Of a stretch of 64,000 nucleotides of DNA, positions 39,942-48,472 are shown piece by piece. Under the pieces are notes generated by a model, which saw only the letters and a program-made list of their open reading frames with translations, had not been told where the DNA came from and did not search any database. Where the stretch lies: the NCBI GenBank assembly GCA_021907015.1, contig CP091064.1, positions 4,092,001 through 4,156,000 of the forward strand. The letters are read 5' to 3'. Both the position numbers and the translations under genes were made by a program. This DNA is from Pectobacterium sp. PL152. Lineage in GTDB: Bacteria; Pseudomonadota; Gammaproteobacteria; Enterobacterales; Enterobacteriaceae. Numbering within the stretch: position 1 is the first letter of the stretch; each line of letters opens with the position of its first letter.

Positions 39942-40901
39942 ATGAAAAATAAAATCACATTAATGCCTTCTGGTGTTGTTTTCGAATGTGGCTCAGAAAA
40001 AACAATTTTAGATTCAGCAATAGAACAAGGGATTGTTCTGGAACATAGCTGTAAAAATGGTTCGTGTAATGCGTGTGAAGCCCACATTCTTGGTCCGCAG
40101 GGTGAAGTCCTTACTACCATTTTGACTTGTCAGGTGAAACCTGACTGCGATATGACGCTGGAAGCTGAGTATTATCCAGAACTAGCGAATATTAAAAGTA
40201 AAACAGCACCGTGTAAGGTTGACTCTATAGAATATCCTCATGAGGATATTGCGATTATTACGCTTCGTTTGCCACCTACAGCAAATCTTACATTCTTGCC
40301 TGGGCAATATCTCGATCTGAAGTATCAAGGTATAGCCAGAAGCTACTCGATAGCCTCTATTCCACAAAACAATAGCAAAGTTGAGCTTCATTTAAAGCGA
40401 GTGGAAAATGGTGCCATGAGTACTAAAATATTTGGCCATCTATCTGCTAACCAATTAATGCAGCTCGAAGGACCAAAAGGCACTTTTTTCTATCGTAACA
40501 ATGAACACTCAGGGCCAATCATATTCCTGGCAACGGGAACAGGATTTGCCCCAATAAAATCGATTGTTACTGATTTACTTAATAAAGGCATTCAACGGGA
40601 TATTTACATTTATTGGGGGAATAGAAAAAGTAAATTGTTCTATGACCCTTCCGTTGCACTATGGGAAAGCCAGCATGCTAATGTTAAGTGTAGTCTGGTT
40701 CTGTCTCGGCCTGAAGATGATTGGAATGGAAGATATGGTTATGTTCAAGAGTTTGTCGTTGCCGATATTAGTGGCTTGAACACAGCCAGCGTCTATGCCT
40801 GTGGAAGCCAATCAATGATTGAGTCAGCAAAAGCGTTATTAATTGAGAATGGACTTCCTGCAGCTAATTTTTACTCAGATGCCTTTGTTGTATCGGGTTG
40901 A
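39942..40901 (+). CDS. ddhD: CDP-6-deoxy-delta-3,4-glucoseen reductase
   Basis: Flavin/iron-sulfur reductase (E3; AscD/RfbI) that feeds electrons to DdhC during C3 deoxygenation of CDP-4-keto-6-deoxyglucose, 319 residues, intact. The N-terminal plant-type [2Fe-2S] ferredoxin domain has CKNGSCNAC and a later TCQ cysteine. The FAD domain has RSYSIAS, and the NAD domain has LATGTGFAPIKSI and VYACGSQSMI. It is the first gene of the ddhDABC-prt-tyv set. Confidence 0.93.
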   Translation: MKNKITLMPSGVVFECGSEKTILDSAIEQGIVLEHSCKNGSCNACEAHILGPQGEVLTTILTCQVKPDCDMTLEAEYYPELANIKSKTAPCKVDSIEYPHEDIAIITLRLPPTANLTFLPGQYLDLKYQGIARSYSIASIPQNNSKVELHLKRVENGAMSTKIFGHLSANQLMQLEGPKGTFFYRNNEHSGPIIFLATGTGFAPIKSIVTDLLNKGIQRDIYIYWGNRKSKLFYDPSVALWESQHANVKCSLVLSRPEDDWNGRYGYVQEFVVADISGLNTASVYACGSQSMIESAKALLIENGLPAANFYSDAFVVSG

Positions 40902-40995
40902 ATGATAAAGCGATTAAGAAATATATATTGAATGTATTATTTGTCATCAGCAGATGACAAATAATTAAAGAGTAGGAACCAACTAGGAGCGTTCC

Positions 40996-41769
40996 ATGAA
41001 AGCGGTGATACTTGCAGGTGGATTAGGTACCAGGCTGAGCGAAGAAACGGTGACTAAGCCTAAGCCCATGGTTGAAATTGGTGGGAAACCTATCTTATGG
41101 CATATCATGAAGATGTACTCTTATCATGGCATAAATGAATTCATCATATGCTGTGGATATAAGGGATATGTTATTAAGGAGTATTTTGCGAATTATTTCC
41201 TGCACATGTCTGATATCACCTTCAATATGAAGGATAATGAAATGACGGTGCTACCAAAACGCGCTGAGCCTTGGACTGTTACTCTCGTCGATACGGGCGA
41301 TCACTCCATGACTGGAGGCCGTCTGCGCCGCGTTTCTGAATATATTAAAGATGATGAGTGCTTTTGCTTTACCTACGGTGACGGGGTATGCGGTGTTGAT
41401 ATTCAAGATACGATCGCCTTCCATAAGCGCCATGGTAAGCTTGCTACATTGACGGCGACATTACCGCCGGGTCGTTTCGGAGCACTCGAATTATCCAATG
41501 GACAGGTGCAGAGTTTTAAAGAGAAGCCGAAGGGCGATGGTGCCTTGATTAATGGTGGTTTCTTTGTTTTATCTCCTAAGGTTCTGGACCTCATTGACGG
41601 TGACAGCAGCGTTTGGGAACAATCACCTCTGATGACTCTGGCCGCGAAGGGTGAGTTGATGGCTTATGAGTACACGGGTTTCTGGCAGCCAATGGATACG
41701 TTGAGAGACAAAATGCTTCTTGATGAACTTTGGCAAAATGGTGAGGCTCCTTGGAAAAAATGGGAGTAG
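40996..41769 (+). CDS. ddhA: Glucose-1-phosphate cytidylyltransferase
   Basis: Makes CDP-glucose from CTP and glucose-1-phosphate, the first step to 3,6-dideoxyhexoses, 257 residues (RfbF length), intact. The nucleotidyltransferase signature is [35 protein letters not shown] residues, [13 protein letters not shown] and [19 protein letters not shown] are characteristic of RfbF. Its end overlaps the Shine-Dalgarno region of ddhB. Confidence 0.95.
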
Positions 41770-41774
41770 ACAGC

Positions 41775-46079: not shown

Positions 46080-46208
46080 TATAACCACTAATTGAATGAG
46101 TGCAGGATCACCTATGATGGTCCTGTGCTTTATTTTTCACGATAGCGATTATTTTATTTATAATGGTCGCATGACTTATATATATATGATAATGATGTTC
46201 ATAAAAAA

Positions 46209-47482
46209 ATGAAATTGCCAAATCATTTACTCATTGCTGCATCATCATGGATCGCAAAAATAATAATAGCATTGTCTCAAGTTGTATCCATTCACTATCT
46301 TTTAGATATGATGGGGGAGAATGGATATGCTGCATTTGTTCTTTTATCGGGGCTTCTGGTTTGGGAAGTATAGCTGATTTTGGTATAGGAAGTAGTCTTC
46401 AAAACTATATTTCAGAATCAAGGGCAAGAAATGAAAACTATAATAAATATATAAAGGCATCTTTTGATATTGTTACTTTTGGGATGCTATTTTTAATTAT
46501 TATACTTATATTTTGTCTGACTATCTATCTGCTTTTTATTTGTCTAACTTCTCTGATTTAGAAATAGGAAATAAGGGGAATGTTTTTTTGTTACGAGCGT
46601 GATATTTTGTTCTGTTGGGATTGAAGTGTTATTTGTAAAATATGGTTCGCCGAGCAAGTTGGATGGAAAGCGAATATAGTAAATGCAGTTGCCTATCTCT
46701 TTGGTTTTTTTGGGAGTTTGGTTTTCGCATAAAATAGGTCTCAAACTAGATGTGAAATTATCATTGGCCGTAATGTTTCTTCCTTTATCTCTTCTTACTG
46801 TAATTTTTTTGATTAATAAATATCTTAAAAATAAGAGCGAAAATATAGAAATAAAAGACTATTTTTTGCTTATGAAAAGAGGTCGCGGTTTTTCTTTTTG
46901 CTCTTTTATCTGTTCTGGTGTTGCAAGCTGATTATATTGTCATGTCTCAGAAGTTATCCGCATCTGATATTGTCGTGTATTCTATTTTAATGAAAATATT
47001 TTCTTTGCTGTTTTTTATCTATAGTGCCGTTTTACAAGCATTATGGCCTTTATGTGCTGAGCTGAGCGTAGGTAAAAAATTGAATCGGTTAAATAAAATG
47101 ATAACTATAAATATATTTTTGGGGCTGCGTTTATATCATTATTTACTTTGATTCTATTTTTCTTTAAAGGTGAAGTGATCCCGCTTATCTCTATTAAGAT
47201 AGATTACAATATAAATTACTCTGTTTTTTTATGTTTGGTGCTTATTTTATAATTCGAGTTTGGTGTGATACATTTGCCATGCTTTTGCAAAGCATGAATT
47301 ACCTGAAGCCTCTGCTTTACCTTGTTCCTATACAGGCTGTGGTTGGGTTTAGTGCCCAATGGTTCTTAACTGAGAAATATGGAATTATGGGGATTCTTTT
47401 GGGGCTTTCTGTTATCTTTTATTGTCACTGTTTTTTGGGGCTTCCATATTTTTATTATAAGTTAATTAAGAAGGAAAAATAA
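46209..47482 (+). CDS. wzx: O-unit flippase Wzx, multiply frameshifted
   Basis: Polytopic flippase (MATE/PST superfamily) moving lipid-linked repeat units across the inner membrane, about 425 residues and 12 segments. The start KLPNHLLIAASSWIAKIIIA, then DFGIGSSLQNYISESRARNENY, ADYIVMSQKLSASDIV and IIRVWCDTFAMLLQSMNYL resemble the Salmonella group B/D Wzx as I recall it. At least six indels (around 46370, 46530-46620, 46650, 46890, 47120 and 47215) interrupt it. It follows tyv as rfbX follows rfbE in Salmonella group D. Confidence 0.8.
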
Positions 47483-47483
47483 G

Positions 47484-48472
47484 ATGAAAATTTCATTTTG
47501 TATCCCTACGTATAATCGATGTGATGTCTTTGAAGAGTTAATAAAAAGCATAAGCACCCAAGAAAAACACTCATTTGATATAGAGATATGTGTCTCCGAT
47601 AATGCTTCAACTGACGGAACTACAGAATCAATAGAAAGATGGAAAGAGATGTATGGCGTTCCGATTATCTATAAAAAAATGAAAAAAATATTGGTCCTGA
47701 TAGAAACTATTTGGCCGCAGTGTCTTTAGCGTCAGGAGATTACTGTTGGTTGCTGGGAAGTGATGATTTATTATCGCCTGATGCACTCTATAAACTAGGT
47801 ATTGTGATTTCGAGTAAGTGCGATTTATATCTTTGTGATAGAAAAGAATTTGATATGGAGATGAAGAGTGTAAAGTTAGAACATAGGAAATGGTTGACTC
47901 TGATAGTGCTATTTTTCATTAAAAACGAAGTTGATTATATAAATTATTTTAATAAGTGTAAAACATTAGGTGGTGTTTTTTAGCTATCTTAGTTCTTTGA
48001 TAGTTAGGAGGAGTTGTGGGATTCTGTTGTCTTTGATAATGCTTATATTGGCTCGGCGTATGCACATGTTTATGTTTTGTTTTCAATGATGAAAATAGGG
48101 GTGGAATTTCGATCGAATATATTTCACAAACCTTAGTCTGGTGTCGTGGCGATAATGATTCTTTTTAGAGGAAGGTATAGCCAAAAGAGCCGCGATTGAC
48201 TTAAAAGGATATGTCAATTTTGCGTATGCATTTTACGCTGATAAAAACCAGAGATAGCTTAATAAATGTTCTTCTGAGAGAACGACCTTGGTTTTATAAT
48301 TCATTAATTATAGGACACTATGGTAGTAGTATTATAAAGAGTGATGTTGCTGAGTGTTATGCCAAAATGGGAAAAAATAAAATATTTACTTATTTTTTTT
48401 AGTCTTGGAACATTGGGCTTTTATGCCTATAAAATTTCTTTTTATTCGAAAAAATATAGCCCCGTTGATTAA
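47484..48472 (+). CDS. wbaV: Family 2 glycosyltransferase, WbaV-like (probable tyvelosyltransferase), frameshifted
   Basis: GT-A transferase of about 330 residues. The start KISFCIPTYNRCDVFEELI, SDNASTDGT and the DxD-type LLGSDD motif mark GT2. The pieces YLCDRKEFD, KTLGGVFSYLSS-like text and LLRERPWFYNSLI match, in my memory, the Salmonella abequosyl/tyvelosyltransferase RfbV (WbaV), and the gene sits directly after wzx as rfbV does. Inference: it adds the tyvelose branch. Several indels (47670, 47708, 47900, 47985, 48090-48200, 48400) split it; after the last the protein ends at YSPVD, 48472. Confidence 0.72.

Follow-up and report, generated by a model that had tools for sequence, protein, structure and literature searches.

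What glycan is specified by the polysaccharide locus of Pectobacterium sp. PL152, and does the sugar cassette inside it, the gene order of which is familiar from Salmonella group D, make this glycan a Salmonella one? The cassette lies in a stretch of 64,000 nucleotides (hereafter the window; positions 4092001-4156000 of genome G000, a single 5.02-Mb contig), and searches of the window for open reading frames (ORFs) and protein families place ddhD-ddhA-ddhB-ddhC-prt-tyv-wzx and a family 2 glycosyltransferase (GT2) gene in this order at 39942-48482. A preceding sequence-only reading had reported the same order at this place, with the last gene named wbaV, and the ORF, family, PDB and tree evidence agree with it. 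In our opinion, the locus is probably the tyvelose version of the variable, modular O-antigen/exopolysaccharide (EPS) locus of a Pectobacterium strain, and the tyvelose set is most likely one swappable variant among the related sugars of the genus, the O9 glycan of Salmonella not being reproduced here. The comparisons covered 25 genomes of the genus and an order-level sample of 394 genomes, G000 being included in both.

According to the known pathway, DdhA would produce CDP-glucose, DdhB together with DdhC and DdhD would convert it to CDP-3,6-dideoxy-4-keto-glucose, Prt would reduce the latter to CDP-paratose, and Tyv would invert C-2 of this compound to yield CDP-tyvelose. The CDP-glucose synthase, the 4,6-dehydratase and the E1 3-dehydrase of the ddh pathway all scored above the family cut-offs (300.25 bits for TIGR02623, 278.45 for TIGR02622 and 423 for NF011936/RfbH), DdhB and DdhC even as pieces, and the best solved structures for them are 1tzf (DdhA), 1rkx followed by 1wvg (DdhB), and 3bcx (DdhC). 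DdhD matched general ferredoxin-reductase families only, all the matches shown being below the cut-off, and its gene takes the position before ddhA. The names ddhDABC and rfbIFGH, as well as DdhC and RfbH, are synonyms.

The two finishing genes, prt and tyv, fit a tyvelose pathway. Two of the tyv pieces were used as queries against the PDB, and both lead with TyvE structures: the first scored 139.7 bits with 9rl0 of Thermodesulfatator and 98.2 bits with 1orr of S. Typhi (next match 45), the second 73.9 and 65.2 bits, respectively (next match 27.2). On these two pieces, the epimerase is nearer to TyvE than to short-chain dehydrogenases/reductases (SDRs) of other function. Compared with the TyvE of Shewanella, its identity is 79-86% over three pieces and 80.9% over 188 residues overall. 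It adjoins a Prt-type reductase, a piece of which groups in the tree with the tyv-linked prt genes of Shewanella and Flavobacterium (a four-row set with support of 99/96), while the reductases of three other Pectobacterium genomes, G004, G024 and G016 (the G016 row being partial and long-branched), fall outside this set. Taken with the scores of DdhA, DdhB and DdhC, this bears out the tyvelose pathway proposed in the sequence-only reading. The epimerase alone is no proof of tyvelose, since the TyvE of Thermodesulfatator (TaTyvE) turns CDP-glucose into CDP-mannose (PMC13098431, PMC7851689), and it is to TaTyvE that the window pieces are closest among the solved structures (59/82 and 38/50 identical residues with 9rl0 vs 48/82 and 36/50 with 1orr, as counted by hand on the alignments). 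Yet tyv is immediately preceded by ddhDABC and by a prt of the tyv-linked kind, which would have no role in CDP-mannose supply, and genes for GDP-mannose (manCB) are present, so that a function of the epimerase in the conversion of CDP-glucose to CDP-mannose, or in the metabolism of another CDP-sugar, instead of tyvelose seems extremely unlikely to us.

Within the genus set TyvE was found in G000 only, and within the order sample in five of the 394 genomes, G000 included. Outside the genus, the 80 matches that were kept contained at least 41 clear TyvE loci, at 45% identity or more (the remaining 39 matches are at 32% or less), which belong to Pseudomonadota, Campylobacterota, Bacteroidota, Thermodesulfobacteriota, Cyanobacteriota and others. 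Among the 41 listed loci, 24 have ddhA, ddhB, ddhC, prt and tyv all on one strand, and 18 have them in the order ddhA-ddhB-ddhC-prt-tyv; ddhD stands in front in nine of the 24 five-gene loci, the order tyv-wzx-GT2 occurs in four of the 41, and a wza/wzb/wzc-like gene in one, some of the DNA stretches around these loci being so short that neighbouring genes can be missed there. The cassettes of Shewanella holmiensis (L030), Geotalea (L036), Flavobacterium (L053 and L064) and Sphingomonas (L062) share the ddhABC-prt-tyv order with the window, with TyvE identities of 62-81% over pieces, and in Geotalea and Sphingomonas wzx and a GT2 gene follow tyv as well, while the flanks of the window differ from those of the cassettes of other bacteria. 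The likeness to the order of Salmonella group D, noted in the sequence-only reading, is therefore real, but this order is not a Salmonella signature because it is common to many TyvE loci of other bacteria. We also weighed, and reject, the possibility that the cassette came from Salmonella, because the two TyvE pieces score nearer to the Thermodesulfatator enzyme than to that of S. Typhi (1orr), the TyvE of Shewanella is similar to the extent given above, and many other bacteria have this gene order.

The C-terminal (main) piece of the initiator scored 316.7 and 315.6 bits with the WcaJ models NF007518 and TIGR03023, about twice the 153.4 bits with the WbaP model TIGR03022; it is below the WcaJ cut-offs, only a piece being available for comparison. 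Of the WbaP/WcaJ-type primer proposed earlier, the WcaJ part has thus been retained and the WbaP part abandoned. A search of the whole genome with PF02397 matched no other gene, and thus revealed no WbaP galactose-1-phosphate initiator. The initiators of G013 (567.6 bits) and G016 (565.4 bits), by contrast, exceed the cut-off of the WbaP subfamily (403 bits), and those of G004, G006 and G024 resemble that of G013 in their length of 484 amino acids (aa) and in their 41% identity with the window piece. Since the initiator is of the WcaJ type, glucose is expected as the first sugar. The family matches of the glycosyltransferases (two of the GT4 type and one GT2) agree with the count of an initiator plus three such enzymes that had been made previously.

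An O9-like unit, in which tyvelose (linked alpha-1,3 to mannose in O9) would branch from a repeating galactose-mannose-rhamnose (Gal-Man-Rha) backbone and the polymer would be exported as EPS, could be expected from the ddh-prt-tyv-wzx-GT2 order, which is the same as in the Salmonella group D1 O9 cluster (PMC3715488), and from the presence of manCB and rmlDCA. Moreover, the EPS of P. atrosepticum has a Gal-Man-Rha backbone, the mannose of which carries a side chain of erwiniose and galactose (PMC8657720), and the same backbone is known for S. Enteritidis (PMC9912281); a Salmonella-like EPS in the genus is, therefore, already in print, for an RfbP/WbaP-type locus. In the window, however, the initiator is of the WcaJ type, the GT2s that adjoin manC (the RfbN position) in G013, G004 and G024, which served as queries for the roles of the O9 rhamnosyl- and mannosyltransferases WbaN and WbaU, have no match, and the TyvE pieces score higher with the Thermodesulfatator enzyme than with that of S. 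Typhi. The rml genes, which in Salmonella O9 lie at the 5' end directly before ddh (PMC3715488), are located here at the far end on the minus strand and are not tied to ddh, and wza-wzb-wzc are present, unlike in the O9 cluster. The rmlDCA-galF-gnd block is matched, whole or in part, in all 25 genomes of the genus, being nearly complete in five members without RfbH above the cut-off (G008, G014, G015, G019 and G023). Because it is found throughout the genus, including the genomes without RfbH, this block is uninformative on the presence of rhamnose in the unit. We consequently do not uphold the supply of rhamnose for the unit by rmlACD or the O9 composition, both proposed from the sequence earlier, and regard an O9-like unit as highly improbable. 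A unit of glucose, mannose and tyvelose is more likely to be built by this WcaJ-type locus, as judged from its genes. The combination of glucose, mannose and a dideoxyhexose does exist in the genus, because the O-polysaccharide of P. aquaticum IFB5637 contains mannose, glucose and abequose (PMC8126228), with abequose in the place of the tyvelose predicted here.

A hypervariable EPS/O-antigen locus with wza, rfb, galF and gnd has been published for Pectobacterium (PMC6963963, PMC10991766, PMC6286560). Its representative HAI5 of P. atrosepticum, given as rfbP, rfbIFGH, hpcH ... nahO, nahM, rfbX ... rfbN, rfbM, rfbK, rfbD, rfbC, rfbA (PMC6286560), has in common with the window the wza-wzb-wzc start, ddhDABC, manCB, rmlDCA and the galF and gnd frame, whereas in the window prt-tyv stand where HAI5 has its erwiniose genes, WcaJ replaces RfbP/WbaP, and the glycosyltransferases are other ones. 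Our search of the open-licence literature found no report of tyvelose in Pectobacterium. Six of the 25 genus genomes (G000, G013, G004, G006, G016 and G024) possess ddhDABC, followed by finishing genes of the tyvelose type in G000, of the erwiniose type in G013 and G006, of the ascarylose type in G004 and G024, and of an abequose-like type in G016; the family scans were made on G013 and G004, and G006 and G024 were paired to them by likeness of ORFs and DNA. The G013 cassette (L015:389-6934) encodes an HpaI-type aldolase, a YerE-type thiamine diphosphate (ThDP) enzyme, a 311-aa ORF without a family, a DmpF-type acylating acetaldehyde dehydrogenase, a DmpG-type aldolase and an SDR, and in the G006 cassette (L019:320-6861) the ORFs match those of G013 in size and order, with 86-92% DNA identity. 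These two cassettes are assigned to the erwiniose type because they match the published P. atrosepticum cluster; as ErwE and this cluster have been described already (PMC12247030, PMC6286560), the idea of a new erwiniose gene finding was dropped. The ascarylose-type cassette consists of an SDR, an RmlC-type epimerase, a flippase-sized ORF and one glycosyltransferase-sized ORF (L016:11784-15783 vs L020).

In G016 (L022:1-654 and L023:13320-15576) one contig breaks off within the reductase gene and another at wzx, no TyvE was found, and we can only guess that this incomplete cassette would be an abequose version; the wzx-GT2 segments of the window and of G016 are about 82% identical at the DNA level. 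G019 was also observed to have, away from its galF-gnd block, a reductase and two genes that distantly resemble ddhA and ddhB (57 and 48% aa identity; L024:10787-15115).

The ascarylose-type cassettes of G004 and G024 are 99.3-99.6% identical over 4 kb, grading via 93-96% to 82-92% farther out. Such a near-identical cassette amid divergent flanks, with one genome in each of the two groups described below, indicates that the cassettes are exchanged between species, and we take it as direct evidence, at the level of sequence comparison, of such an exchange, a recent one in the case of the ascarylose-type cassette. As to the conserved modules, ddhDABC and manCB of the window are 97.4 and 98.7% identical to those of G013, and between these modules the two genomes have no DNA match over 300 bases. 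The ddhDABC genes form two groups, one of G000, G013 and G004 and the other of G006, G016 and G024, as does the flank, and manCB follows this split except in G016 (84-89% to all). With ddhDABC and, save for G016, manCB grouping like the flank, we rejected the idea that the ddh-man block had recently entered from another genus.

Both brackets of the Pectobacterium EPS/O-antigen locus, wza-wzb-wzc and galF-gnd-yjbFGH, are present around the cassette (Table 1), and the location of the cassette behind export genes, from which export of the polymer as EPS or capsule had been suggested, was confirmed by tblastn of intact relatives. The combination of Wza-Wzb-Wzc with GfcB/C/D-type YjbFGH resembles a group 4 (O-antigen) capsule, capsule export of the polymer being putative; a similar group 4 capsule-like layout is known in Dickeya (PMC7877592). 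Apart from Wzc of the window, the Wzz domain (PF02706) was matched in the whole genome only at 2.16-2.17 Mb, where the only PF01943 match is also located, beside an aminotransferase-like match at 2164701; this site is presumably the enterobacterial common antigen cluster. One PF04932 (Wzy_C/WaaL-type) match occurs elsewhere in the genome, and Wzt_C has no match in the genome. If the strain has smooth lipopolysaccharide (LPS), the locus would, as far as its genes allow us to judge, be the best candidate for O-polysaccharide synthesis, and the repeat unit may also leave the cell as EPS or capsule. Behind the yjbFGH-type genes, a pro-kumamolisin/subtilase-type protease gene begins at 62939-63999, with split frames.

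Table 1. Genes of the locus, with positions counted from the first nucleotide of the window, and the grounds for their assignment
Feature	Position	Strand	State and evidence
wecA-like GlcNAc-1-P transferase, opening the locus	31129..32253	+	intact; 85-90% aa identity to relatives; G013 relative TIGR02380 533 bits (cut-off 326)
wza-wzb-wzc, export	32377..36126	+	split; tblastn of intact relatives; G013 Wza NF011658 696.7 bits; Wzc Wzz domain PF02706
candidate wzy polymerase, 371-aa membrane protein	36177..37292	+	position; six hydrophobic segments by simple count
GT4-type glycosyltransferase	37593..38421	+	split; PF13439 and PF00534 on two pieces
WcaJ-type undecaprenyl-phosphate glucose phosphotransferase	38754..39884	+	split; PF02397
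ddhD, E3 reductase	39942..40901	+	intact; 91-99% identity to ORFs of five genus members
ddhA, glucose-1-phosphate cytidylyltransferase	40996..41769	+	intact; TIGR02623 469.4 bits; PDB 1tzf 476 bits
ddhB, CDP-glucose 4,6-dehydratase	41751..42865	+	two frames; TIGR02622 464.5 bits (piece); PDB 1rkx 560.5 bits, 1wvg 548.2 bits
ddhC, CDP-4-keto-6-deoxyglucose 3-dehydrase	42862..44175	+	several frames; main piece NF011936/RfbH 473.6 bits; PDB 3bcx 461 bits
prt, CDP-paratose synthase	44177..45022	+	split frames; 53% to Shewanella prt over two pieces, 257/293 residues covered
tyv, CDP-paratose/tyvelose 2-epimerase	45049..46045	+	several frames; top PDB matches 9rl0 and 1orr, both TyvE
wzx, flippase	46242..47480	+	several frames; pieces 58-84% identical to a 414-aa open ORF located at the end of a G016 contig
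wbaV-like GT2, presumed tyvelosyltransferase	47484..48482	+	several frames; pieces 65-82% identical to a GT2 that is intact in G016; PF00535
manC	48544..49947	+	intact; 87-99% to intact relatives
manB	49957..51312	+	nearly intact; 93-98% to intact relatives, 98% of their length
second GT4-type glycosyltransferase	51541..52432	+	split; PF00534 on the larger piece
rmlD-rmlC-rmlA	52556..54878	-	rmlD and rmlA split; tblastn of intact relatives
galF and gnd	55017..57552	+	galF split, gnd intact; tblastn of intact relatives
yjbF-yjbG-yjbH (gfcB-C-D type, group 4 capsule)	58336..61986	+	split; located by tblastn of intact relatives; G013 relatives PF11102, PF20616/PF06251, PF06082

Besides the above-mentioned breadth of TyvE, several points weigh against the interpretation of the locus as a tyvelose one. 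The sugars of the strain are predictions from its genes, and the polymer may be LPS-bound or free. WbaV and Wzy are assigned via their place and weak similarity: the candidate Wzy protein has no Pfam or NCBIfam match, the name wbaV is presumed from the position of the gene and from its resemblance to the GT2 genes found behind tyv-wzx in some loci elsewhere, and its G016 relative matched no abequosyl- or tyvelosyltransferase family. The MatE-like Wzx of the window (below the Pfam cut-off as a piece, its G016 relative being above it, PF01554) was missed by the PF01943 search, and a second flippase of this kind could be overlooked likewise. The wza-wzb and wzc genes depart from the two-group split of ddhDABC. 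Finally, of the eight genes that make up the cassette only ddhD and ddhA are open, the frames of ddhB, ddhC, prt, tyv, wzx and wbaV being split, and neither prt nor tyv has an open frame in the assembly, each extending over several frames.

If these frameshifts were real, the locus would be decayed and would direct the synthesis of no dideoxyhexose polymer, or of one with paratose only, as in Salmonella group A, where a frameshifted tyv leads to paratose (PMC3715488). Decay agrees with the density of one-base gaps in wzx-wbaV (9.85 per kb vs G016, at 82% identity, in comparison with 0.94 in ddhDABC), only five of 22 of which are within runs of three or more identical bases, so that a part of the cassette may truly have decayed. 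The splitting is, however, not confined to the cassette: among 41 comparable window genes, 19 are split relative to intact relatives, nine of 14 inside 32377-55912 and ten of 27 outside it. This count leaves aside three short overlapping ORFs (at 56146, 59904 and 60835) as well as prt, tyv and wzx, and keeps the row 23899-24327, perhaps a spurious antisense ORF. The split conserved genes are spread over 8644-63999 and include those of the glucokinase, HAD hydrolase, lactonase, AsmA, DcuC, TerC/CorC and YjbF/G/H types. Outside the segment, their pieces are from 74-79% (AsmA type) up to 98-100% (DcuC type) identical to intact relatives, and in several split genes both pieces retain 96-100% identity (100 and 98% in the DcuC-type gene, 99 and 96% in ddhB).

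Four gaps in ddhDABC change the frame in comparison with G013, and each of them is the loss of one base from a run of three or more; in comparison with G004 this holds for three of four, while the control pair, G013 vs G006, has no frame-changing gaps over these genes; bases in runs of five or more are denser in the variable segments (57-61 per kb) than in other stretches of the window (16-30 per kb). In the flank, frame-changing gaps amount to 2.01 per kb in the control pair and 1.47-3.09 in the window, and one-base gaps to 1.27 and 2.80 per kb, respectively; as the control flank also has gaps, a part of this signal is ordinary divergence. Sequencing error, although unproven, is the likelier source of the frameshifts, considering that conserved flanking genes are split too and that long homopolymers are more abundant in the variable segments, and we believe decay of the locus to be unlikely. 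ORF coverage in another region of the same genome, L141 (G000:C1:4500001-4520000), was 0.56, the lowest among the eight regions sampled.

With the tyvelose interpretation retained, the route from sugar nucleotides to the surface could be as follows. WcaJ would start the repeat unit by transferring glucose-1-phosphate onto undecaprenyl phosphate, the two GT4-type enzymes would add the backbone sugars, at least one of which is probably mannose provided by ManC/ManB, and the wbaV-like GT2 would attach tyvelose as a branch. Wzx would then flip the unit, and the putative polymerase encoded at 36177-37292 would polymerise it. The polymer would leave the cell via Wza/Wzb/Wzc with YjbFGH and/or be ligated to the LPS core, so that one glycan could be both the EPS or capsule and the O-antigen. 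The strains would exchange finishing genes beside the conserved ddhDABC and manCB modules. Going further, we tentatively suggest, rating the chances at slightly below even, that serotype switching like that of Salmonella groups A/B/C2/D takes place here, with ddhDABC and (mostly) manCB as old clade-bound anchors and with tyvelose, abequose-like, ascarylose and erwiniose cassettes traded between species; the tyvelose branch would in this case sit on a hitherto undescribed, glucose-initiated backbone that serves as both O-antigen and EPS and on which phages probably exert selection.

The gene order of the cassette, which is spread over several phyla, is no marker of Salmonella. If the tyvelose interpretation is true, tyvelose would join erwiniose and abequose, both in print, as a dideoxyhexose-pathway sugar of Pectobacterium, or, if tyv alone is truly broken, paratose would take its place, per Salmonella group A (PMC3715488). 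With tyvelose, such strains would be predicted to cross-react with anti-O9 factor sera and to differ in their phage receptors, and the sugar switching that separates the serogroups of Salmonella would operate in a plant pathogen as well.

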